A stretch of 64,000 nt of DNA, from the NCBI GenBank assembly GCA_903875445.1, contig CAIQWD010000005.1, forward strand, positions 1 through 64,000. Reading direction: 5' to 3'. This stretch comes from an uncultured delta proteobacterium (lineage in GTDB: Bacteria; Desulfobacterota; Desulfobulbia; Desulfobulbales; Desulfocapsaceae). The notes under the pieces are model-generated. The model was not told where the DNA came from and did not search any database. It worked only from the letters and a program-made list of their open reading frames with translations. Below, piece by piece: positions 3,681 to 63,935 of the stretch; the first letter of the stretch is position 1, and each line of letters starts with the position of its first letter. Both the position numbers and the translations under genes were made by a program.

Positions 3681-3970
3681 ACGACGGGATCGGAATTTCT
3701 TTTCAAGGACAGCTTTAATCGACCGGGCGGCAAGGACCTGTTTACACCGGTGCCGTTCGTTTCCTCGAAAGAACTTTCGGATAAAGAATATCCATTTGTC
3801 TTGACAACCGGCTGGGAACTGTTCCACTATGCATCGTTCTACGGCAGGTGGTCTTTATCCCTTTCCATTATCGGGAAGCGGCGGCAAATCTTCTGGCCAG
3901 CGATGCCATGGATCCGATTTGCAAGATCATGGAAACCAAGGTCTGTGCGGTTAAACTTGAAAAACAATAG
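3681..3970 (+). pseudogene. formate dehydrogenase alpha subunit, C-terminal remnant
   Basis: Two pieces of the molybdopterin-dinucleotide-binding domain are readable in two frames. Frame one gives FNRPGGKDLFTPVPF then YPFVLTTGWELFHY (to about 3830). Another frame gives VVFIPFHYREAAANLL then DPICKIMETKVCAVKLEKQ, stop at 3968-3970. In intact FdhA these blocks are separated by roughly 50 residues, so an internal deletion with frameshift has occurred. The active-site region and everything upstream are absent. It is a dead gene fragment, informative because the next genes follow directly in the same orientation and one of them carries an in-frame UGA. Confidence 0.8.
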
Positions 3971-3980
3971 GTCTTTGATT

Positions 3981-4367
3981 ATGGGTGCTAGTATTGCAAT
4001 TCACGGGGTGAAGGTGACGATTGCCGATTGCGAGACGGTGATCGTCGTCCCGGAGATTGCCGTCAAAGAGGCCGGGTATATCAAGACCTATTCGTGCAAA
4101 GAGAGCGGCAATGCTAAACATGCCTTTCACGCGCTTGCGCAAATGGTATATTTTCAGTTTCAGGACGAAGAACTGGAGATCGTCGAGATCGACTCTCCTT
4201 TGACGATCAGTGACGGTCGAGAGCGTACAGAACTGGACAACGGGTTGGTGCTCTGCCGCGACCTTGCCGGGAAATTGCACGTCTTGGCGCATGCTCGACA
4301 AAATAGAAAAAAACTGCTTGAGGCGGCCTATCGGTACTGCACCAGGTGGGTTCGTCTCGATATATGA
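3981..4367 (+). CDS. conserved-looking protein of unknown function
   Basis: 128 aa, starting 10 bp after the formate dehydrogenase remnant and ending 22 bp before the DUF166 gene. Composition is that of a soluble protein with a plausible alternating strand pattern (VKVTIADCETVIVVPEI, VYFQFQDEELEIVEIDSP) and five cysteines that do not form an obvious metal motif. No signal peptide or membrane helix. I do not recognise the family. Its position suggests cotranscription with the DUF166 selenoprotein and formerly with formate dehydrogenase, so a role linked to either is possible but unproven. Confidence 0.55.
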   Translation: MGASIAIHGVKVTIADCETVIVVPEIAVKEAGYIKTYSCKESGNAKHAFHALAQMVYFQFQDEELEIVEIDSPLTISDGRERTELDNGLVLCRDLAGKLHVLAHARQNRKKLLEAAYRYCTRWVRLDI

Positions 4368-4389
4368 ACTCTCAGCAAAGGAAGCAGCA

Positions 4390-5046
4390 GTGAAAAATGG
4401 TGTTGTGAACGGCCGGCAACGGCTTATGGTTTTTCAGCAAAACGGCAGCGGTGAGCCGAAAATAGCCGGTCTGCGGAAGTATGGCGGCGAACTTTTCGAG
4501 CTTGAGGTCGTCAATATTGATGTGGCCCTGCCGACGATTCTAGATAATACTAGTGACTATTTGCCTGAGGATATCTCCTGTGACTTGGTCCTGGATTTTT
4601 TACGTCACAACGATCTGTCGGCGGATCTCGCCGCACTTTGTGCGCAAAAGGATATCCCGGTTATTGCCTCGGGGAAAAAGATAAGCTGCAAAGGCCTGGT
4701 CACCCCGCCCACCTGATGTGGTCTTCCAAGGCAGGTCGGCCTTGGTAACTATGGTGAGCATTTCGGGGCTCCGGAATTTACGGTTGCCATAAAGGATGGG
4801 AAGATTACTGAGGTACATGTCGTTCGTGGGGCACCCTGCGGGGCGACATGGGAGGCGGCAAGAAGGTTGATTGGCCATCCCGCCGAGGATGCCGTGCGGA
4901 AGATCGGTCTTGATACCCAGTTTTACTGCTCTGCAAATCCGGCTGGCTGGGATCCTATTTATGGCAAGAGTCCGGTCCATTTTGCCGGAAAGATCCATAG
5001 TAAGGAACTGCAGAAAGCGATCGAAAAGGTACTCTCAATACTTTAA
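4390..5046 (+). CDS. DUF166-family protein with in-frame UGA (candidate selenoprotein)
   Basis: 218 residues if UGA at 4714-4716 is read as selenocysteine (residue 109). Before the UGA the frame reads LVTPPT; after it, CGLPRQVGLGNYGEHFGAPE, then VHVVRGAPCGATWEAARRLI and QFYCSAN, open for 110 codons to TAA at 5044. The second half carries the DUF166 hallmarks as I recall them: a FGxPE block, a RGAPCGAT block and a downstream Cys. The UGA falls in the Thr-Cys-Cys-Gly-Leu-like motif of that family, where the first Cys would be replaced by Sec. Start GTG at 4390 is set by AAGGA 7 nt upstream. Biochemical function is unknown; archaeal members are sometimes mislabelled thymidylate synthase. The UGA is followed by a hairpin fitting a SECIS element. 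A terminator follows the TAA. Confidence 0.85.
4714..4746 (+). promoter_or_regulatory. candidate bacterial SECIS element after UGA
   Basis: UGA at 4714-4716, then 9 nt, then a perfect 7-bp stem CCAAGGC (4726-4732) / GCCTTGG (4739-4745) closing a 6-nt loop AGGTCG. The E. coli fdhF SECIS loop is AGGUCU and begins about 17 nt after its UGA; here it begins 16 nt after. Loop sequence, stem and spacing thus all agree with SelB recognition. Confidence 0.75.
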
Positions 5047-5050
5047 TAGG

Positions 5051-5085
5051 AGGCCAACGCCTAACGGCGATGGCCTTTTTCTTTA
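5051..5085 (+). terminator. Rho-independent terminator after the DUF166 gene
   Basis: AGGCC-AA-CGCC pairs with GGCG-AT-GGCCT around a short loop, followed by TTTTTCTTT. It lies 4 bp after the TAA and ends at the convergent rubrerythrin stop. Confidence 0.75.
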
Positions 5086-5658
5086 CCAATGCTTCTCAAG
5101 TATTGCAAAGTACCCTGGCGGTTTGACGCAGGCCGGGCACTTGTCCGGGGGGCTGGTGTCCTCATGCAGGTAGCCGCAGTTGAGGCATTTCCAGACCATC
5201 TTTTCCTGCCGTTTGAAAGCCCTACCGGAGGCGAGGCTTCCGGCCAGGGCGCGAAACATCAACTCGTGATGTGCCTCGGCGACGTTGATGGCGGTAAAGG
5301 TTTCTGCTGCTCTTGAAAAACCCTCTTCTTCGGCAATTTCCGCAAAAATCTTGTACATCTTGTCGTGAACAAAAAGTTCCAGGTCTGCTGCGGCAATAAG
5401 ATTGGTGCGGGTATCCTTAATCACTCCGGTCGGGAAGGTTCCGGTAATTTCCAACTCACCGCCGTTGAAAAATTTGAAAAACCGCAAGCCATGTTCATAT
5501 TCCTGTTCGGCGGTTTCGTCAAAAATCCTGGCAATTTCTATGAGATCTTCAACTCTCGCCTGTTCCGCAAAGAAGTTGTATCGGGTTCGAGCCTGAGCCT
5601 CCGCGGAAAAGGAGAGAAGCAGGTTGTGTGCGGTTCTGCTGCTACGAAACCCGACCAT
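5083..5658 (-). CDS. rubrerythrin
   Basis: Non-haem diiron peroxidase that reduces hydrogen peroxide with electrons from rubredoxin or ferredoxin in anaerobes. N-terminal ferritin-like four-helix domain with the iron ligands visible as Glu and ExxH motifs (SAEAQARTRYNFF, ETAEQEYEH, VAEAHHELMF), then a C-terminal rubredoxin-like domain with CLNCGY and CPAC. 191 aa, normal for the family. Start at 5658 (MVGFRSS) has GAGAGG upstream; earlier in-frame codons would overlap the ferredoxin gene. It lies 13 bp after the ferredoxin stop, so the pair is an operon, consistent with that ferredoxin being its electron donor. Confidence 0.93.
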   Translation of the reverse strand: MVGFRSSRTAHNLLLSFSAEAQARTRYNFFAEQARVEDLIEIARIFDETAEQEYEHGLRFFKFFNGGELEITGTFPTGVIKDTRTNLIAAADLELFVHDKMYKIFAEIAEEEGFSRAAETFTAINVAEAHHELMFRALAGSLASGRAFKRQEKMVWKCLNCGYLHEDTSPPDKCPACVKPPGYFAILEKHW

Positions 5659-5982: not shown

Positions 5983-6105
5983 GTTTTCGTCAAGTGTTGG
6001 TTAAGGGGAAAGACAATGAAGAGCACCACAGCATGAGCCTCATTCAACATGCGGGTGGCTTCTACAGAAAATCAGTATGCATGCATACGAAGAGCGGGGG
6101 GTGGG

Positions 6106-6912
6106 ATGATGGCGGTTGCCAAAAATGCCATGGAGATCTTCAAGGTTCTTGAAAAGAGTAATTGTCGCGAATGCGGTGAAAAGACCTGCCTGGCCTTTGC
6201 CGGCGCAGTCTTTTGCGGGACTCGTCGAATCAACGAATGTCCGAGAGCAAACAGTGCGGTCTTGGCACAATTCACATCGACAAGTGATGAACGATCAAGC
6301 CAGGAAAATGACCTGGAAACATATATTGTCGAATTGAAAAAACAGGCGATGCAGGTGGATTTTGCGAAGACCGCCGCCCGCATTGGGGCACAGGTCCATG
6401 GCGAGATGCTGCAGGTGAAAATTCTTGGCAAACTGTTTGGTATCAGGAAAAATGGCAGTTTTTCAACGGATCTCCACCTGATTCCCTGGGTGGTCATACC
6501 TCTTCTCCACTACGTGTTGAACTGTAAGGGTGTGAAGGTCAGTGGACAATGGGTCTCCTATAGGGAGTTGCCCGGCGGTAAAGAAAAATATGCGCTTTTT
6601 AAAAAGCAGGGAGAAGATGTCCTACGACAGCTTGCCGACAGATATGCCGGTTTTTTTGATGATGTTTTGCATATGTTTGAAGGCAGAGCAGTGGAAAAAC
6701 AGTACGAGGCCGATGTCTCCGTCGTTCTTCAGCTTTTTCCACTGGTTCCCATCATGATCTGCTATTGGAAACCTGATGAAGGTTTGGCCTCAAGTCTCTA
6801 TATTTTTTTTGATAAAAGCGCCGGCGACAATATCGGTGCCGAATCGGCCTTTTCTCTCGGCACCGGGCTTGTGCAGATGCTCAAGAAGCTGGCTACCCAT
6901 CATGGCTTCTGA
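6106..6912 (+). CDS. DUF3786 protein with CFeSP-type iron-sulfur motif
   Basis: About 268 aa. The N-terminus has NCRECGEKTCLAFA followed 14 residues later by NECP, that is C-x2-C-x4-C-x16-C, the [4Fe-4S] motif seen at the start of the corrinoid iron-sulfur protein large subunit and related ASKHA activators. The remaining roughly 190 residues match the DUF3786 type (HLIPWVVIPLLHY, SYRELPGGKEK, the acidic LQLFPLVPIMICYWKPDEG). DUF3786 proteins occur in anaerobes with corrinoid-dependent one-carbon metabolism, but their reaction is not known to me. Start chosen at 6106 after a GGGGGGTGGG stretch; ATG 6109 is equally possible. Confidence 0.75.
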   Translation: MMAVAKNAMEIFKVLEKSNCRECGEKTCLAFAGAVFCGTRRINECPRANSAVLAQFTSTSDERSSQENDLETYIVELKKQAMQVDFAKTAARIGAQVHGEMLQVKILGKLFGIRKNGSFSTDLHLIPWVVIPLLHYVLNCKGVKVSGQWVSYRELPGGKEKYALFKKQGEDVLRQLADRYAGFFDDVLHMFEGRAVEKQYEADVSVVLQLFPLVPIMICYWKPDEGLASSLYIFFDKSAGDNIGAESAFSLGTGLVQMLKKLATHHGF

Positions 6913-7119
6913 GGGAATAAAAAGAGATATGGGTAAAAGCGCATCGGCCAGAAAAAAAAGCTATGATAACATCATATATCTATTATAATGCGACGCGATC
7001 GAATCCTTTACGATGCATTGTCTCATCCTATTGCTCTGATGTTTGCACACTTGAAGAGCTGATGACAGCTGAGTGACTGGCAATTTTCCATCAGGGCTAT
7101 TCTCATGGAGGTTTTTGCA

Positions 7120-10100
7120 GTGACCAGGATTACCCCACAGCAGGACAACAAGGACAGGATAGGTTCAGTACTCGTGGTTGGTTCAGGTATTGGAGGGATG
7201 CAGGCAGCTCTCGATCTTGCCAACAGTGGTCTGATGGTTCACATGATCAACGATGAGCCGTCTATCGGCGGGACGATGTCCAGGCTGGACAAGACCTTCC
7301 CTACCGGCGACTGTGCCATGTGTATGATTTCCCCACGCATGGTTGAGTCCAGTCGCCATCCCAATATCAAGATGCATACCATGTGCAGGGTCCTTAGGGT
7401 CTCCGGCGAGGAAGGAAACTTTACCGCTACCCTCGAACAGAAGGCCCGCTATGTCGATCCTGAACGTTGCACCGGATGCGGGGCCTGCGAACCTGAATGT
7501 CCAGTAAAAGTTGCCAACTTCTTTAATCAGGGACTGGATAAGAGAAAAGCCATCTATTCCTTGTTTCCCCAGGCGGTGCCGAATACCCGATCGATCGACT
7601 CGGTAAACTGTCTGTATCTTACCAAGAATGTCTGCCGCAAATGTGAAAAGGCCTGCGATGCCAAGGCCATCAATTTCGAGGATCGCGACAAACTGGTTGA
7701 GGTAAAGGTCGGTTCGATTGTTCTTACTCCCGGTCTAAAAACCTATCAACCTGAAATTCGCCAGGAACTCGGCTACGGTAAATATAAAAATATCGTCACC
7801 TCTCTCCAGTTCGAACGACTGCTTTCAGCCTCCGGACCCTGCAGCGGGACTGTTGCCCGACCCTCGGACGGCGGGCATCCCAAACGGCTGGCCTGGGTGC
7901 AGTGTGTCGGTTCGCGAAATGCTCATAACGCCAACCCCTGGTGTTCTTCGGTTTGCTGCATGTATGCCGCCAAGCAATCGATCATTGCCAAGGAGCACGA
8001 CAAGGAAGTGCAATCCACCGTTTTTTACATGGAACTTCGTGCCTTCGGTAAAGATTTCGACAAGTATATAGACAAAGCCAAAAGAGACGCCGGGGTAATT
8101 TACAAACGGGCAATGATCTCCGAGATTATCGAAGACCCGAAAACCGGCAATCTGCTTATTCACTCGGTTGGCGAAGACGGCAAGACGGTTCACGAAGAGT
8201 TTGATATGGTTATTCTTTCCATAGGCTTCGAACCACGCAGTGACGCCGCTGAGTTTTCCAAGATTTTTGCAATAGATACAGATACATACGGCTTTGCCAA
8301 GACGTCGAAGCTGAGGCCGGTTGAAACCTCAAGACCAGGTGTCTATGTTGCCGGCACCTACCAGGGTCCGAAGGATATTCCGGAAACGGTCATCCAGGGT
8401 AGCGGCGCTGCGGCTGAGGCCATGGCTCTCCTCGGCGATCGGCGTGGAACTGAAGTAACCAAGGTTATTCTCCCGGATGAACGGGATATTACCGGAGAAG
8501 AACCGAGGGTCGGTGTTATCGTTTGCCATTGCGGTACCAATATCGCCGGCACAGTGGATGTCAAGAGGGTAGCGGCAGCGGCATTAACTCAGCCGGGCGT
8601 TGCCCATGCCGAGACGATTATTTACGCCTGTGCTCCGGACGGACAACAGAAGATTCGCGATCTGATCAAAGAAAAGGGTTTGAACCGGGTTGTTGTGGCC
8701 TCCTGTACCCCACGAACCCACTCGCCGCTTTTTCAGGACACCATTCGTGAGGTCGGTCTCAATAAGTTTCTTTTTGAGTTGGCCGACATCCGCGAGCAGT
8801 GTTCCTGGTGCCATATGCACGATAACGAGAATGCCACCAGGAAGGCGATAGAAATCGTCAATATGATGGTTGCCAAAACCAAGCGGCTTTTGCCGGTAAC
8901 TTCTGCTTCCGTTGGGGTTACTCATGATGCGCTGATCATCGGCGGCGGGATTGCCGGCATGACTGCCGCCCTTTCGCTGGTGGATCAAGGGTACGGTGTG
9001 CATCTGATCGAGAGATCCGCAGCCCTTGGCGGTTTATTGACAAAGGTTCGAGCCAATCTCGAAGGAGACGATGTTCAGGCATTCCTCGCCGACACTATTA
9101 AGAAAGTAGAGAACAATCCGGCGATAACCGTCCATTTGGCGGCAACTGTTGATAAGGTCGATGGTTTTGTAGGGAATTTTGTTACCACACTTACAAACAA
9201 AGAGACCATAAGCCACGGGGCCATTCTCATAGCCGCGGGTGGGGCGGAATACAGCCCGGATGAATACGGCTACAGGGATTCGGATAAAATTATAACTCAG
9301 CGGGAACTCGAAACCCTGCTGGCCGAAAAGGGTCCGGACAATCAAAAGACCTACGTCATGATTCAGTGTGTCGGTTCTCGCGAAGAACCGAACAACTACT
9401 GTTCCCGTATCTGCTGCCAGGATGCCCTGAAAAACAGTATCGCCATTAAGGAAAAGGCTCCGAATGCGCAAGTCGTGGTCATCTACCGGGATATGCGGTC
9501 GTATGGCCTAAAGGAGGAGTATTACAGCAAGGCTCGAGATCTTGGCGTTCTTTTCTTCCTCTATACTCCGGATGACAAGCCACAGGTTGAACCAATGGGC
9601 GACAAGGTCAGGGTGACTCTTACGAGCAAAGTGCTCGGTCGGGAAATGGCCATTGATGCCGACCATGTGATTCTCTCTACCGGGCTCAGACCGCAACCCG
9701 ATGGTGATGAATTTGCTAAGAAATTCAAGCTCACCTGTAATATTGACGGGTTTCTTATGGAGGCCCATGTCAAGCTTCGACCTGTTGATTTCCCCAGTGA
9801 AGGTTATTTCCTGGCAGGCCTCGCGCATGCGCCCAAGAATCTTGAAGAAACAGTGAGCCAGGCCTTGGCCGCTGCCGGCCGAACCGGGGCATTGCTGTCG
9901 CACGACAGTCTTACCGTTTCCGGGGTCATTTCCAAGCACAATCGTGACATATGCATGTCATGCCTGGCATGTGTGAAGAAGTGTCCGTTTGGTGCGCCGT
10001 TTATCGATACAGACGGGCGCGTCAGCCATAATGAGGTGAAATGCACGGGCTGCGGTATTTGCGCCGGCGTGTGTCCCGCCAAGGCTTATCAGGTGAATTA

Positions 10101-10155
10101 TTTCCGTGACGATCAGCTGCTTGCCATGATCGATTCGGTTACCGAAATGCACTAA
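7120..10155 (+). CDS. tandem HdrA-like flavoprotein iron-sulfur subunit (fused HdrA-HdrA)
   Basis: 1011-aa cytoplasmic electron-transfer flavoprotein. First half: FAD-binding GSGIGG (about residue 22), CTGCGACEPECP cluster near 117-127 and CRKCEKAC near 172. Second half: the HdrA-type VCHCGTNIAG near 466, VVASCTPRTH, a second FAD motif GGGIAGM near 605, and two C-terminal ferredoxin clusters (CMSCLACVKKCP, CTGCGICAGVCP). This equals a QmoA/HdrA-like unit fused to a full HdrA. Start GTG at 7120 is preferred because GGAGG overlaps the upstream ATG and sits 8 nt before the GTG. With MvhD, MetV and MetF directly downstream it should pass electrons to or from methylene-THF reductase, possibly by flavin-based bifurcation (inference). 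Confidence 0.9.
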   Translation: MTRITPQQDNKDRIGSVLVVGSGIGGMQAALDLANSGLMVHMINDEPSIGGTMSRLDKTFPTGDCAMCMISPRMVESSRHPNIKMHTMCRVLRVSGEEGNFTATLEQKARYVDPERCTGCGACEPECPVKVANFFNQGLDKRKAIYSLFPQAVPNTRSIDSVNCLYLTKNVCRKCEKACDAKAINFEDRDKLVEVKVGSIVLTPGLKTYQPEIRQELGYGKYKNIVTSLQFERLLSASGPCSGTVARPSDGGHPKRLAWVQCVGSRNAHNANPWCSSVCCMYAAKQSIIAKEHDKEVQSTVFYMELRAFGKDFDKYIDKAKRDAGVIYKRAMISEIIEDPKTGNLLIHSVGEDGKTVHEEFDMVILSIGFEPRSDAAEFSKIFAIDTDTYGFAKTSKLRPVETSRPGVYVAGTYQGPKDIPETVIQGSGAAAEAMALLGDRRGTEVTKVILPDERDITGEEPRVGVIVCHCGTNIAGTVDVKRVAAAALTQPGVAHAETIIYACAPDGQQKIRDLIKEKGLNRVVVASCTPRTHSPLFQDTIREVGLNKFLFELADIREQCSWCHMHDNENATRKAIEIVNMMVAKTKRLLPVTSASVGVTHDALIIGGGIAGMTAALSLVDQGYGVHLIERSAALGGLLTKVRANLEGDDVQAFLADTIKKVENNPAITVHLAATVDKVDGFVGNFVTTLTNKETISHGAILIAAGGAEYSPDEYGYRDSDKIITQRELETLLAEKGPDNQKTYVMIQCVGSREEPNNYCSRICCQDALKNSIAIKEKAPNAQVVVIYRDMRSYGLKEEYYSKARDLGVLFFLYTPDDKPQVEPMGDKVRVTLTSKVLGREMAIDADHVILSTGLRPQPDGDEFAKKFKLTCNIDGFLMEAHVKLRPVDFPSEGYFLAGLAHAPKNLEETVSQALAAAGRTGALLSHDSLTVSGVISKHNRDICMSCLACVKKCPFGAPFIDTDGRVSHNEVKCTGCGICAGVCPAKAYQVNYFRDDQLLAMIDSVTEMH

Positions 10156-10233: not shown

Positions 10234-10752
10234 ATGGCGATTGACGCAGAAAAAATTGAAGAACCGAAAAGTCCGGAAAAACCACAGGATGTTCCTGCCG
10301 ACTGGAAGGCTAACATCATCGCTTTTGCTTGTCATTACTGCGCTTTTGCAGCCGCTGACCTAGCCGGGGTGATGAGGCTATCATATCCATCCAATGTCAA
10401 GGTGATCCGCCTACCCTGTACGGGAAAACTTGATCACGTCTACATTTTACGTGCTTTTGAGCGGGGCATAGACGGCGTATTTGCCGCTGGCTGACTTGAG
10501 GGACAATGTCATTTCCTGGAAGGAAATTTAAATGCTGCTAAAAGAGTGAATAGAGTCAGAAACTTATTACATATGCTTGGGATTGATCCGGCTCGGCTCG
10601 AGTTCTTTAACCTCTCTGCAGCGCAGGGACCGAGGTGGGCCGAGATATGCACTGAATTTACCAAAAGGGTCAGTGCATTGGGGCCATCGCCCATATGGTT
10701 TGCTCTTCAAAAGAAAAAAGTGTCCACGGAGAATGAAAAACAGGCCGCCTGA
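10234..10752 (+). CDS. mvhD: MvhD/FlxD-type hydrogenase iron-sulfur subunit with in-frame UGA (selenoprotein)
   Basis: 172 residues when UGA at 10492-10494 (residue 87) is read as Sec. The frame reads VFAAG before the UGA and LEGQCHFLEGN after it; the MvhD family has GC..g.CHY..GN there, so Sec replaces the first Cys of that [2Fe-2S] ligand set. Upstream, FACHYCAFAAADLAG and RLPCTGKLDH supply the other Cys ligands; downstream, FFNLSAAQGPRWAEI and LGPSP complete the domain. Sec-containing VhuD/MvhD proteins are known from methanogens. Starts after AAGGAAAGGATA. It links HdrA to another redox partner; here the operon context (hdrA upstream, metV-metF downstream) points to methylene-THF reductase. 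Read naively it would look like two broken genes. Confidence 0.88.
10492..10527 (+). promoter_or_regulatory. candidate SECIS hairpin after the mvhD UGA
   Basis: ATTTCC (10511-10516) pairs with GGAAAT (10522-10527) around the loop TGGAA, starting 16 nt after the UGA. Stem and distance fit a bacterial SECIS and the loop carries G residues, but it matches the fdhF loop less well than the DUF166 element. Confidence 0.5.
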
Positions 10753-10801: not shown

Positions 10802-11464
10802 ATGATAATAGGACAGCAGAAACCGTTTGATGAAATATGGGAGATGGTCAAGGGCCATAAGCAGCTGACTGTATTCGGATGCAATACCTGTGTCGCCGTT
10901 TGTCACCAAGGCGGCAACAAAGAGGCTGAAATCCTTGCCTCCTTACTGCGCATGCGGGCAACGCAGGAAGGTATAGATATCGATATCAAGAACGGCGGCA
11001 TTGAAAGACAATGTGAGCACCCGTTTTTTGAATCGGCTAAGGACCTCCTTGGCGAGTCGGAGGCAGTCCTCAGCATGGCCTGCGGCATAGGGGTTCAGTT
11101 TGTTGCCGAAAAATATATGAGCACCCCGGTATATCCGGCACTGAACACCACTTTTCTCGGGGATGTGAAGACCGATTGGCATTTTACCGAAAAATGTCAG
11201 GCATGCGGCGACTGCATCCTCGGCATAACCGGTGGAGTGTGTCCAGTTAGCCGCTGCTGTAAGCGGCTTTTTAACGGCCCGTGCGGTGGCTCATCGAAGG
11301 GAAAATGTGAAATTTCCAAAGAACTTGACTGTGCCTGGCAGTTGGTTGTCGATCGACTGGAGGCTCTTGGCAAAATGGATGATTATGAGAAAATCGCCCC
11401 TATAAAAGACTGGTCGAAAGATCGTGCAGGTGGGCCTCGATCATTTAAATTGGAGGGCTTTTAA
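10802..11464 (+). CDS. metV: methylenetetrahydrofolate reductase small subunit MetV
   Basis: 220-aa zinc/iron-sulfur protein of the MTHFR C-terminal family. It carries FGCNTCVAVCHQGG at the N-terminus, MACGIGVQ in the middle and a Cys-rich C-terminus (CQACGDCILG, GGVCPVSRCCK, FNGPCGG, GKCEISKELDC). In acetogens MetV is required for MetF activity and bridges it to HdrABC-MvhD or Rnf-type partners. ATG at 10802 follows GGAGGAGTGGAGAGGGT. It sits 50 bp after mvhD and 2 bp before metF, so the order hdrA-mvhD-metV-metF is one operon. Confidence 0.92.
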   Translation: MIIGQQKPFDEIWEMVKGHKQLTVFGCNTCVAVCHQGGNKEAEILASLLRMRATQEGIDIDIKNGGIERQCEHPFFESAKDLLGESEAVLSMACGIGVQFVAEKYMSTPVYPALNTTFLGDVKTDWHFTEKCQACGDCILGITGGVCPVSRCCKRLFNGPCGGSSKGKCEISKELDCAWQLVVDRLEALGKMDDYEKIAPIKDWSKDRAGGPRSFKLEGF

Positions 11465-11466
11465 TC

Positions 11467-12399
11467 GTGGAAACGAAAACCAACAGCAAACTTGAGAAAA
11501 TCTTTAAAAGCGGAGTCATGGCGGTTACCAGTGAGTGCGGTCCGCCTCGTTCAAGTGATCCTGCCCATATCATTACCAAGGGCAATCTGATAAAAAATCA
11601 TGTCGATGCCATCAATATTACCGACAATCAGACTGCAGTTACCAGACTTTGCAGTCTGGCTGCCTGTATCCACCTGAAATTGCAGGGACTGGAGCCTGTC
11701 CTGCAGATGGTAGTGCGAGACAGAAATCGGATCGCTCTGCAGGCTGATATACTGGGTGCCGCATCTTTTGGCATCAACAATATGCTCTGCCTGTCCGGCG
11801 ATCACCAGAGCTTTGGTGATCACCCGAAGGCCCAGAATGTATTCGATCTTGATTCTATGCAGCTCATTCAAACCGTCCGGCATATGCGAGATGAAGGCAA
11901 GTTCCTTAGTGGTGAAGAGATCAAGGTGCCACCCAACCTCTTTGTTGGCGCCGCAGCCAACCCCTTTGCCGACCCCTTTAAGATCAGGGTGCCGCGTCTC
12001 GCCAAAAAAATCGCCGCCGGTGCTGAATTTATTCAGACCCAGTGTGTCTATAATCTCGATAAATTTGAGCTGTGGATGAAAGGTGTGGTGGAAAGAGGCC
12101 TGCATGAGCAGGTTTTCATCATGCCCGGTATTACCCCGATGCGATCGGTGGGTATGGCAAAATATATGGCCCGCGCCGTGCCCGGGATGGATGTCCCCGA
12201 AGAATTGATCAAACGATTGTCAGGCGTCCCCAAGGACAAGCAGGCAGAAGAAGGAATTACTATCGCTGTTGAATCTATTCAGCGGTTGAAAGAGTGCAAG
12301 GGTGTAAGTGGCTTTCACATCATGGCTATCGAATGGGAAGATAAGGTCCCTGAAATAGTTGAAAGATCTGGTTTGTATCCAAGGCCCGTTGTCGATTGA
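11467..12399 (+). CDS. metF: 5,10-methylenetetrahydrofolate reductase MetF
   Basis: Catalyses methylene-THF to methyl-THF (or the reverse), the redox step of the methyl branch of the reductive acetyl-CoA pathway. 310-aa TIM-barrel flavoprotein: TSECGPPR at the N-terminus, DAINITDNQ, ADILGAASFGINNMLCLSGD with the flavin-binding region, GAEFIQTQCVYNL and MPGITPMRS. GTG start at 11467 follows a GGAGG in the end of metV. Being paired with MetV and HdrA/MvhD, electrons probably come from or go to NADH/ferredoxin through the Hdr module rather than directly from NADH. Confidence 0.95.
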   Translation: METKTNSKLEKIFKSGVMAVTSECGPPRSSDPAHIITKGNLIKNHVDAINITDNQTAVTRLCSLAACIHLKLQGLEPVLQMVVRDRNRIALQADILGAASFGINNMLCLSGDHQSFGDHPKAQNVFDLDSMQLIQTVRHMRDEGKFLSGEEIKVPPNLFVGAAANPFADPFKIRVPRLAKKIAAGAEFIQTQCVYNLDKFELWMKGVVERGLHEQVFIMPGITPMRSVGMAKYMARAVPGMDVPEELIKRLSGVPKDKQAEEGITIAVESIQRLKECKGVSGFHIMAIEWEDKVPEIVERSGLYPRPVVD

Positions 12400-13045: not shown

Positions 13046-13939
13046 TTACAGTCCGAGGCTTTTCTTGGCTGAGGTAAGGGTGTTTTTCATCAACATGGTG
13101 ATGGTCATCGGGCCGACACCACCTGGCACCGGGGTAATTTTGCCGGCGATTTCTTTTGCCTTCTCAAAATCGACATCGCCTTTGAGTATGGCCTTGCCGG
13201 TTTTTTCGTTAATACCGACACGATTGACACCAACATCGATTACTGTTGAACCGGGTTTGATCCATTCAGGTTTCACCAGATCCGGGACGCCGGCGGCGAC
13301 GATAAGAATGTCGGCCCTTCGGCAATGGGCAGCAAGATCCTTGGTGCGGGTGTGGACGATAGTTACGGTGCTGTTGGCGCCTCTACCCTTTTGGGCCATC
13401 ATGATGGCAATCGGTTTGCCGACGATATTCGAGCGACCGACAACAACCACTTCCGCCCCAGAGGTTTCGGTGCCGGAACGAACGATCAGTTCCTGAATAC
13501 CGGCAGGAGTACAGGGCAGGAAACGAACTTCATCGCCACCGATCATCAGGCGTCCGACGTTGACCGGATGGAAGGCATCGACATCTTTGTCAGGATTGAT
13601 GGCATTCAGAACCTTTTTGTCATCAATGTGTTTCGGTAACGGCAGCTGTACCAAAATACCATGGATGTCCGGATCGTTGTTGTATTTGTCGATCAGGGCC
13701 AAGAGATCGGCTTCGGAGATGGTTACCGGCTGATCGTCCTGGATTTCATGAAATCCGAGGCCGATGGCGGTTTTTACCTTCAGGGTGACATAGCTGATGG
13801 ATGCGGGGCTACTTCCGACGAGGATGGTTACCAGGCCGGGGACCTTGCCGGTTTTGGCTTTCATCGCTTCGACTTCCAGTTTCAGCTCGGCAAGAATTTC
13901 TTCTCTTATCTTGGTTCCACTAATAATCTCAGCAGTCAT
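13046..13939 (-). CDS. folD: bifunctional methylene-THF dehydrogenase / methenyl-THF cyclohydrolase FolD
   Basis: Interconverts methylene-, methenyl- and formyl-THF. 297 aa. Visible family motifs: YVTLKVKTA with the catalytic Lys region, VQLPLPKH, PDKDVDAFHPVNVG, the NADP-binding VVVGRSNIVGKPIA and the C-terminal ITPVPGGVGPMTITMLM. ATG at 13939 has AGGAG 10 nt upstream; a TTG three codons earlier has no usable spacing. It lies downstream of fhs on the same strand (about 100 bp), so fhs-folD is the second half of the methyl branch whose last step is encoded by the convergent metF operon. Confidence 0.97.
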   Translation of the reverse strand: MTAEIISGTKIREEILAELKLEVEAMKAKTGKVPGLVTILVGSSPASISYVTLKVKTAIGLGFHEIQDDQPVTISEADLLALIDKYNNDPDIHGILVQLPLPKHIDDKKVLNAINPDKDVDAFHPVNVGRLMIGGDEVRFLPCTPAGIQELIVRSGTETSGAEVVVVGRSNIVGKPIAIMMAQKGRGANSTVTIVHTRTKDLAAHCRRADILIVAAGVPDLVKPEWIKPGSTVIDVGVNRVGINEKTGKAILKGDVDFEKAKEIAGKITPVPGGVGPMTITMLMKNTLTSAKKSLGL

Positions 13940-14040
13940 AGGGCTCAAGCTCCTTTTCTAGATATTGGATACGTCAATTCATGCAAGGAAAAATGGGGCG
14001 GATGGCTCGGCCTCCCGCCCCTTGCCGTTATTATCAGTGT

Positions 14041-15816
14041 TTAGAATACACCCTCGACCTTGCCGGTTTCCAGGTTGACGTCAACACGCTTGAATGCCGG
14101 GTTGGAACTTGTTCCGGGCATAAGGCTGATTGCGCCTGCCACAGGCACGATAAAGCCGGCACCGCCATAGGTGAGAACCTCGCGGATGGTCAGGCGCCAG
14201 CCGGTGGGTACGCCCTTCAGCGACGGATTGTCGGAGAGCGACAAGTGGGTTTTTACCATGCACATGCCAAGGCCGGCGAGTTTCGGATCGGCCTGGATTT
14301 TGGCGATGGCCTTGTTGGCCTCGGCTGAATAATCGACACCGTCAGCGCCGTATACTTCTTTGGCGATCAGTTCAATTCTGTCCTTGATCGGCATATCAAG
14401 ACTATAAAGGAGTTTGAACTCGGACTTTTCTTCGCAGGCCTCGACAACGGTCTTGGCAAATTCGATGGCGCCGTCGCCGCCTTTTTCCCAATGCCTGGAC
14501 AGTGCCACGCGGGAGCCCTCTGCCTCACACAACTCACGAACCTTGGCAATTTCTGCATCGGTGTCGGTGTAGAAGGCGTTGATGCAGACAACCGAAGGAA
14601 TTCCAGCTTTACGGACGTTTCTGATATGATGAATGAGGTTGCCGCAGCCTTTGGCCACCCAGTCAACGTTTTCGGACTTATACTCGACCGGCATTGCCTT
14701 GCCGGGGACCGGAACGGGCGCGCCGCCGTGGCACTTAAGTGCCCGGATGGTGGCCACGATAACCACGCAGTTCGGAATGAGACCGGAGTAACGACACTTC
14801 AGATTCCAGAATTTCTCGAAACCGATATCGGCACCGAAGCCGGACTCGGTGACATGGTAATCGGCGAGTTTCAGACCAATACGGTCGGCGATAATGGAAC
14901 TTTGGCCGATGGCGATATTGGCAAACGGTCCGGCATGAACGATAACCGGCTGGCCTTCGAGGGTCTGCATGAGGGATGGATTGAGGGCATCGACCATCCA
15001 CGCGGTCATGGCTCCGGCAACCTGCAGGTCTTCGGTGGTGATTGCTTTGCCGGTCTTCGAGTAGGCAACAACGATCTTACCCATTCTTTCGCGCATGTCT
15101 TTCAGGTCGGTGGCCATGGCGAGGATAGCCATAACCTCTGAGGAGACGGCGATACCGAACTTCGATTTCATCATGAAGCCGTCGGTCTTGCCGTTAACTC
15201 CGTCAATACCGATAATGATGTTTCTAAGAGCCTGGCAGCAGAAATCCATAATCCAGCCCATAGCCACGTTGGTCGGGTCGATGTCGAGTCGCTTCATGCC
15301 GGAAAGTCTTTCCAGCTGCTCGTCATTGTAGTTTCTTTCATGCTGCATACGGGAGGTCAGGGCAACCATGGCCAGGTTGTGGGCGTTCATGATGGCATTG
15401 ATGTCGCCGGTGAAGCCGAGAGAGAAGGGAGTCAAAGGAATACACTGGGCAAGACCACCGCCGGCAGCTGATCCTTTGATGTTCATGGTCGGACCGCCGG
15501 AAGGCTGACGGATGGCAGCACAGACACTTTTGCCGATTTTGCCGAGACCCTGAACGAGACCCATGGATGAAGTCGATTTACCCTCGCCGAGTGGGGTCGG
15601 GGTGATTGCCGTGACGTCGATATATTTGCCGTTTGGCTTGTCTTTCAGACGCTTGAGTACCTTCTGGAAATCGATCTTGGCAATGTAGTGACCCTGGGGA
15701 AGCAGTTCTTCCTTGGTCAAGCCGAGCTTCTCACCGATCTCGTAGATCGTTAACATCGTTTTTTCTGCATCTTGCGCAATTTCCCAGTCCGCATGTTTGG
15801 TAGGATCTAAAACCAT
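14041..15816 (-). CDS. fhs: formate--tetrahydrofolate ligase
   Basis: ATP-dependent ligation of formate to THF giving 10-formyl-THF, the entry of formate into the methyl branch (or ATP-yielding release when run oxidatively). 591 aa. The P-loop [11 protein letters not shown] lies at residues 72-82; other conserved blocks are [53 protein letters not shown] and PGTSSNPA near the C-terminus. It is slightly longer than the usual 555-560 aa, mainly through an N-terminal extension. ATG preceded by AAAGGAG. Followed by folD. Confidence 0.97.
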
Positions 15817-63704: not shown

Positions 63705-63918
63705 GTTAGTATCGGCACCGCAGTATAAATAGCTTCCGGGTGCCGCCGCCTTAAAGGCGCGGGGGTGAAAAGGGAATACGGTGCAAATCCGTAACGTTGG
63801 GCCAGCGCTGTAAGCGGGGACGATGACTGTTTGATGACCACTGTTTCGGTAGTTTTGGAACGGGAAGGTGCAGTCGGAGGGTGAGCCGCAAGTCAGAAGA
63901 CCTGCCGGGGAGAATAAA
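63705..63918 (+). ncRNA. cobalamin (AdoCbl) riboswitch
   Basis: All landmarks are in order: GGTGCCGCCGCC...GGGGGTGAAAAGGGAA near 63741-63774, ACGGTGCAAATCCG (63778-63791), GCGCTGTAAGC, then GGGTGAGCCGCAAGTCAG and the B12 box AAGTCAGAAGACCTGCC (63890-63906). It lies on the plus strand at the right edge, so the regulated gene is outside the window (candidates: cobalt or corrinoid transport). Closely linked to NicO, CbiM and CooT. Confidence 0.93.
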
Positions 63919-63935
63919 GACTTTCTTGTCCATAT

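Follow-up and report, generated by a model that had tools for sequence, protein, structure and literature searches.

A probable selenocysteine-containing DUF166-family protein, DfsP, from an uncultured Desulfocapsaceae bacterium and its possible connection with the Wood-Ljungdahl pathway

Codon comparison among related genes, a conserved SECIS-like hairpin, the pattern of selection on the two sides of an in-frame TGA and the presence of the selenocysteine machinery in the genome all support the original prediction that a DUF166-family gene in the window (the whole stretch of 64,000 nucleotides that was analysed) is a probable selenoprotein gene. We conclude that this gene, dfsP, very probably encodes a genuine selenocysteine (Sec)-containing DUF166 protein, and we put the probability that the recoding and the assignment to the DfsP family are both correct at about 0.9. 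The recoding of the UGA at 4714-4716 as selenocysteine, taken as a separate claim and judged from sequence comparison, appears close to certain.

The family itself has been catalogued before. The NCBIfam model NF041372 is named "DUF166 family (seleno)protein DfsP", which means that the family had already been curated as Sec-containing, and two reviews, of 2022 (PMC9312934) and of 2026 (PMC13188914), have entries for a DUF166 domain (pfam02593 / NF041372) selenoprotein with one Sec, which both credit to Zhang and Gladyshev 2007, according to the reviews a study of an Olavius algarvensis symbiont; these entries state no function. Because the model and both reviews already hold the family, the selenoprotein as such is not a discovery, the window gene merely adds to its known members, and the suggestion that a Sec-containing DUF166 protein might be undescribed was wrong. 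The window gene matches the DfsP model over its full length without a difference among the features tested, and the Olavius algarvensis selenoprotein, as entered in the reviews, has the same domain and likewise one Sec; an Olavius algarvensis Delta 3 record among the relatives (L120), unlike the window gene with its TGA, has Cys. In the literature searched, DUF166 as a whole word occurs in selenoprotein reviews only; the matches listed for DfsP as a whole word concern a skin tumour or further meanings of the same abbreviation. Literature searches, partly of the best-ranked matches only, returned no paper tying DUF166 to CODH/ACS, and a term search of the text of a paper on the Wood-Ljungdahl pathway in Desulfobacterota (PMC12827605) found none of DUF, selenocysteine, hypothetical protein or uncharacterized. 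The setting of DUF166 genes near CODH/ACS and Wood-Ljungdahl genes, described below, was not found in the literature searched.

The gene is split by a single in-frame TGA whose frame and position are as originally described, with TPPT before it and CGLPRQVGL after it, so that the read-through product runs ...TPPT-U-CGLPRQVGL... over 218 residues (Table 1). The TGA is separated from the TAA at 5044-5046 by 109 codons (4717-5043), one fewer than the 110 that had been counted. The terminator proposed behind the TAA was recovered as a strong hairpin running into a T run, and a simple terminator scan did not list this hairpin. Both halves of the gene belong to one family, as had been claimed: PF02593 (DUF166) matches the joined protein with 148.2 bits over residues 14-212 (gathering cut-off 24.4 bits), and NF041372 with 333.1 bits over 203/203 model positions (equivalog cut-off 200 bits; 326.8 bits in the genome search), each match running through the TGA. 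PF02593 also matches all 37 members of our homologue set A1. A comparison of positions 3950-5100 with plasmids gave no match.

Table 1. Coordinates of dfsP, its sequence elements and its neighbours in the window
Feature	Coordinates	Strand	Basis or remark
Molybdopterin-oxidoreductase remnant, C-terminal end, in two frames	3687..3964	+	second piece PF01568 23.9 bits, below cut-off
Small uncharacterised gene, 128 aa	3981..4367	+	directly upstream of dfsP, 22-nt gap
dfsP, probable DUF166-family selenoprotein gene	4390..5046	+	218 residues with Sec109, TAA stop; GTG start inferred
In-frame TGA, probably Sec109, adjoining invariant Cys110	4714..4716	+	codon comparison, 109 distinct genes
SECIS-like hairpin	4726..4745	+	stem 4726-4732 with 4739-4745; loop AGGTCG 4733-4738; 9 nt after TGA
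Probable dfsP terminator, hairpin into T run	5048..5079	+	-20.3 kcal/mol, z -4.91
DUF3786 protein with N-terminal Fe-S domain like AcsC/CdhE gamma subunit	6097..6912	+	DUF3786 and FeS via homologue L050
HdrA-type electron-transfer protein	7105..10155	+	NF040770 936.6 bits, below cut-off 1100
MvhD/VhuD-like gene with in-frame TGA 10492-10494	10234..10752	+	NF045873 136 bits, below cut-off 215
MetV-like (PF12225) and MetF-like genes	10802..12399	+	methylene-tetrahydrofolate reductase, Wood-Ljungdahl methyl branch
Genes similar to L083 FolD and Fhs	13049..15684	-	tblastn 370 and 712 bits; methyl branch

With respect to the recoding, a profile search of 389 relatives with NF041372 gave matches in 154 (140 above the cut-off), and 54 of the 150 matches listed contain one internal TGA, the other 96 none. 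From 150 loci with a usable match we obtained 109 distinct genes, that is, genes that differ within the 500 bases surrounding the codon, in which the Sec position is occupied by TGA (77 genes), TGC (22), TGT (9) or TTC (1); a TGA or Cys codon is thus present in 108 of the 109, and the Phe (TTC) belongs to the distant L083. The original prediction had placed the TGA on the first Cys of a Cys-Cys motif, and Cys at the aligned codon in 31 of the 109 distinct homologues bears this out. The reading of the DUF166 gene as a selenoprotein gene stands, and none of the three refutations proposed with it (no aligned Cys, no Sec machinery, a sequencing error) applies. A sequencing error at 4714 is very unlikely, since the codon is likewise TGA in 76 further distinct genes. 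The genome encodes selA (627.5 bits), selB (349.9 bits), selD and tRNA-Sec (selC; 72 bits, anticodon tca). There are two selD genes (G000:C113:107288-108211 and G000:C28:125645-126574), with one internal TGA apiece. Selection downstream of the TGA is strong. In comparisons with four close TGA relatives, dN/dS is 0.027-0.070 on the 3′ side of the TGA versus 0.116-0.182 on the 5′ side (a fifth, L044, yields no value owing to saturated dS); two Cys relatives give 0.068-0.102 after the codon and 0.082-0.154 before it. That dfsP is a pseudogene or carries an erroneous TGA, only a 108-residue N-terminal piece being made, might be suspected from the single stop that splits the frame and from the broken oxidoreductase remnant at 3687-3964, which indicates that decay occurs next door, but the shared TGA and Cys codons, the lower dN/dS after the TGA and the Sec machinery of the genome make this extremely improbable.

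The hairpin consists, as originally claimed, of a 7-bp stem and the loop AGGTCG and starts 9 nt past the TGA. Its stated likeness to the element of Escherichia coli fdhF (NC_000913.3) holds for the loop, which is AGGTCT in fdhF, but not for an identical distance, the loop starting 16 nt after the stop codon here and 17 nt after it in fdhF; the stem of the window differs in sequence from that of fdhF and is an uninterrupted 7 bp. The fdhF loop, AGGTCT, is itself present in 20 of the 77 related TGA genes. Taken singly, the hairpin of the window goes only weakly beyond codon constraint and does not amount to strong evidence: folding of 4708-4760 gives a z-score of -1.57, a stability equalled by 17 of 200 shuffles, and all seven pairs arise in 6.8% of random synonymous codon draws for the window peptide, whose sequence already determines much of the stem. 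Rfam gave no SECIS family match at the hairpin, and the scan of 4690-4800 returned chance-level matches only. The weight of the evidence comes from the comparison across genes. Among the 77 TGA genes, seven stem pairs are formed in 52, six in 19 and five in 6, with a mean of 6.60 pairs as against 6.04 (maximum 6.22) when the 3′ partners are shuffled, and loop positions 2-3 are GG in 77/77; in the Cys genes, by contrast, this GG is found in 3/31 and at least six stem pairs in 4/31, all four of them among the 12 closest to the window. The hairpin is kept in TGA genes and is weaker or absent in most Cys genes. Accommodating these observations, the UGA at 4714-4716 would be read as selenocysteine by SelB and tRNA-Sec with help from the hairpin at 4726-4745, yielding full-length DfsP.

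On a tree of the 109 genes, made quickly with the Sec column removed and with 44 of its 105 inner branches weak, the Sec/Cys label changes at least 11 times, four of these changes being forced by starred branches, compared with 27.3 changes for shuffled labels. Such repeated exchange makes the DUF166 family a convenient object for studying what Sec adds to a protein. One Cys (TGT) gene, L023 (G059), retains a full 7-pair SECIS-like stem and sits among Sec genes, and it likely represents a recent Sec-to-Cys change.

The neighbours of dfsP in the window offer hints as to its function (Table 1). The 128-aa gene immediately upstream, for which there was no Pfam or NCBIfam match, probably forms one operon with dfsP; its homologue directly precedes DUF166 in 33/77 Sec genes, 5/12 close Cys genes and 0/19 distant Cys genes, and its product is a candidate partner protein of DfsP. 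The oxidoreductase remnant before it, presumably of the formate dehydrogenase alpha type, has a whole molybdopterin-oxidoreductase gene as its counterpart at the corresponding place in six relatives (L050, L053, L054, L055, L059 and L062). On the downstream side, the PF12225 gene is one that we take to be MetV-like, and the L083 proteins matched by the minus-strand genes are presumably FolD and Fhs. The MvhD/VhuD-like gene, 5 kb downstream between the HdrA and MetV-like genes, is by its in-frame TGA a probable second selenoprotein gene. These neighbours suggest that DfsP serves the one-carbon and acetate-making pathway. Our preferred but tentative proposal, held at rather less than even odds, is that DfsP assists the Wood-Ljungdahl pathway as an accessory factor in the assembly, repair or protection of the metal clusters of CODH/ACS. 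The selenol/thiol pair Sec109-Cys110, together with other Cys and His residues, would bind or reduce a metal or an iron-sulphur unit in the service of CODH/ACS assembly, repair or protection, and Sec would give this pair a higher reactivity than Cys does.

This proposal draws on loci in which DUF166 is found together with CODH/ACS genes. The gene order is cdhD-cdhA-DUF166-cdhB-cdhC in L083 (G300), with the gamma subunit in the same run and a distant DUF166 (72.8 bits to NF041372; the adjoining cdhA scores 1060.7 bits), and DUF166-cdhB-cdhC in L238 (G263). In L234 (G318) a cdhC-cdhD-gamma cluster is followed by a MinD/CbiA-type ATPase gene, which we take to be CooC-like, overlapping DUF166, and in L239, L240, L241 and L243 the order on one strand is cdhC-acsC-acsE-cooC-like and then a gene for an unknown protein and DUF166. 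Among six genomes with the distant form, DUF166 and cdhC lie on one contig within 8 kb in three (L083, L238, L234) and on separate contigs in the other three; a seventh genome has no PF02593 match. Of 69 DUF166-acsB gene pairs, namely those with both coordinates among the matches listed, the two genes are on one contig in 27 and within 40 kb of each other in 21 (15/34 Sec and 6/35 Cys). In the subset used for comparison with control genes, DUF166 is within 40 kb of acsB in 12/26, or 10/23 when three genomes absent from the control lists are left out, versus 0/25 for TSCPD and 3/26 for NifU_N. In three genomes of other families, G096, G099 and G100, the distance between acsB and a NifU_N gene is 14-20 kb. 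The association with CODH/ACS and Wood-Ljungdahl genes provides a testable lead on the function of DUF166.

The wider neighbourhood, surveyed in 40 loci and the window, points in more than one direction. In Sec-type loci, NuoF-like, NuoG-like and molybdopterin-oxidoreductase genes, which presumably make up a formate-dehydrogenase-type set, and the 128-aa gene are often found upstream of DUF166, and rubrerythrin, DUF3786+FeS and HdrA genes often downstream. Within 9 kb of DUF166, a distance that not all loci span (64 of the 77 Sec loci have at least 8 kb of total flank), formate-dehydrogenase-type genes occur in 20/77 Sec, 6/12 close Cys and 1/19 distant Cys loci, CODH/ACS-type genes in 12/77, 0/12 and 1/19, respectively, and Hdr/Met genes in 18/77 Sec and 5/12 close Cys loci. 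Since formate-dehydrogenase-type genes are the commoner ones at this range, DfsP may conceivably have a role in electron transfer, as a redox partner or thiol-disulphide protein of an electron chain of formate dehydrogenase, HdrA, MvhD and MetF. The placement of many Sec-type DUF166 genes after NuoF-like and molybdopterin-oxidoreductase genes and before HdrA, the frequency of Hdr/Met genes nearby and the Sec-Cys pair, a common redox motif, all fit such a role. However, the window keeps dfsP though the body of the molybdopterin oxidoreductase has been lost at this place, and the loci described above (L083, L234, L238, L239, L240, L241 and L243) have DUF166 with CODH/ACS genes instead. We consider such a redox role, in a chain of formate dehydrogenase, Hdr and MetF, to be possible but somewhat unlikely, ranking close behind the assembly or repair factor.

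A general role of DUF166 apart from the Wood-Ljungdahl pathway, with the neighbourhood inherited or due to chance, is similarly doubtful. The distant Cys-type genes mostly stand by other genes, several of them adjoining unrelated ones such as that of an iron-type alcohol dehydrogenase, and the single CODH/ACS-type neighbour among the 19 agrees with a general role. Across genomes, CdhC (PF03598) is present in 285/389, with a match in 135 of the 154 genomes that have DUF166 and in 150 of the 235 that do not; the counts are therefore 135 with both, 19 with DUF166 alone, 150 with CdhC alone and 85 with neither (odds ratio 4.0, Fisher p 1e-7, uncorrected for kinship, and the counts are not independent because the genomes are related). 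The 19 DUF166 genomes without a CdhC match likewise favour a general role and, with the 150 that have CdhC alone, count against the proposed CODH/ACS factor, in favour of which is the higher frequency of CdhC among DUF166 genomes. Also in its favour, Methanocaldococcus jannaschii and Methanosarcina acetivorans, of 14 control genomes, match both PF02593 and CdhC; Bacillus subtilis matches PF02593 as well, and two of the three PF02593 matches are above the cut-off. Against a general role stands the fact that DUF166 lies close to acsB or cdhC in two clearly distinct sequence types of locus. A further such pairing may exist in Methanococcus maripaludis, if COG1810 is, as we take it to be, DUF166. 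A table in PMC1852104 assigns MMP0976 to COG1810 and MMP0984 to CO_dh and places the two genes' products among proteins confined to methanogens and A. fulgidus.

As for the protein itself, an AlphaFold2 model from 37 sequences (pLDDT 92.2, pTM 0.87) predicts an N-terminal half with a Rossmann-like fold, a C-terminal domain, and Sec109-Cys110 at the junction of the two. The invariant residues of the aligned set include C110, R146, C150 and H197, and conservation reaches 90% or more at C109 (Sec in the window), C180 and H203. No relative was found by sequence among solved structures, and Foldseek gave no match to the whole model at E <= 0.001. VIA matched the N-terminal half to commonplace Rossmann and receiver folds (Z 7-8), from which for that reason no function was drawn, and the matches listed contain no thioredoxin-type protein. 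For the C-terminal domain (residues 111-218; pLDDT 88.3 when modelled alone), Foldseek places IscU/SufU chains at 12 of its top 15 positions, several of which go to one human protein (best E 0.38, TM 0.53), and VIA aligns it with IscU at Z up to 7.8 (rmsd 2.8, 90 residues aligned), a level that common arrangements also reach; CO-dehydrogenase/xanthine-oxidase-type medium chains reach Z up to 8.7. The C-terminal half of the DfsP model superposes on about 90 residues of the IscU / NifU N-terminal scaffold, from which DfsP differs by its additional Rossmann-like N-terminal half. The comparison by hhalign with PF01592 (NifU_N) gave a probability below 1%, the template alignment having little diversity (Neff 1.6), and PF01592 is absent from the 19 families matched by the 37 members at E up to 5. 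The IscU likeness of the modelled fold is not significant and serves as a lead only. A kinship with TSCPD (PF12637) was considered and rejected (13.8 bits, E 0.073, below the cut-off of 22.8; matched by 2/37 members at E up to 5; hhalign negative).

Returning to the proposal of a CODH/ACS assembly or repair factor, one could extend it from DfsP to DUF166 proteins generally, which would then be the missing factor of this kind, combining IscU-like and Rossmann-like domains with a Sec-Cys pair and additional Cys/His ligands that handle Fe-S, Ni or persulphide, and accompanied by a CooC-like ATPase and CODH/ACS genes in bacteria and also, to judge by locus numbers, in a methanogen. We regard this extension as speculative and rather unlikely. 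Elsewhere in the window, at 63721-63923, there is a cobalamin riboswitch (97 bits).
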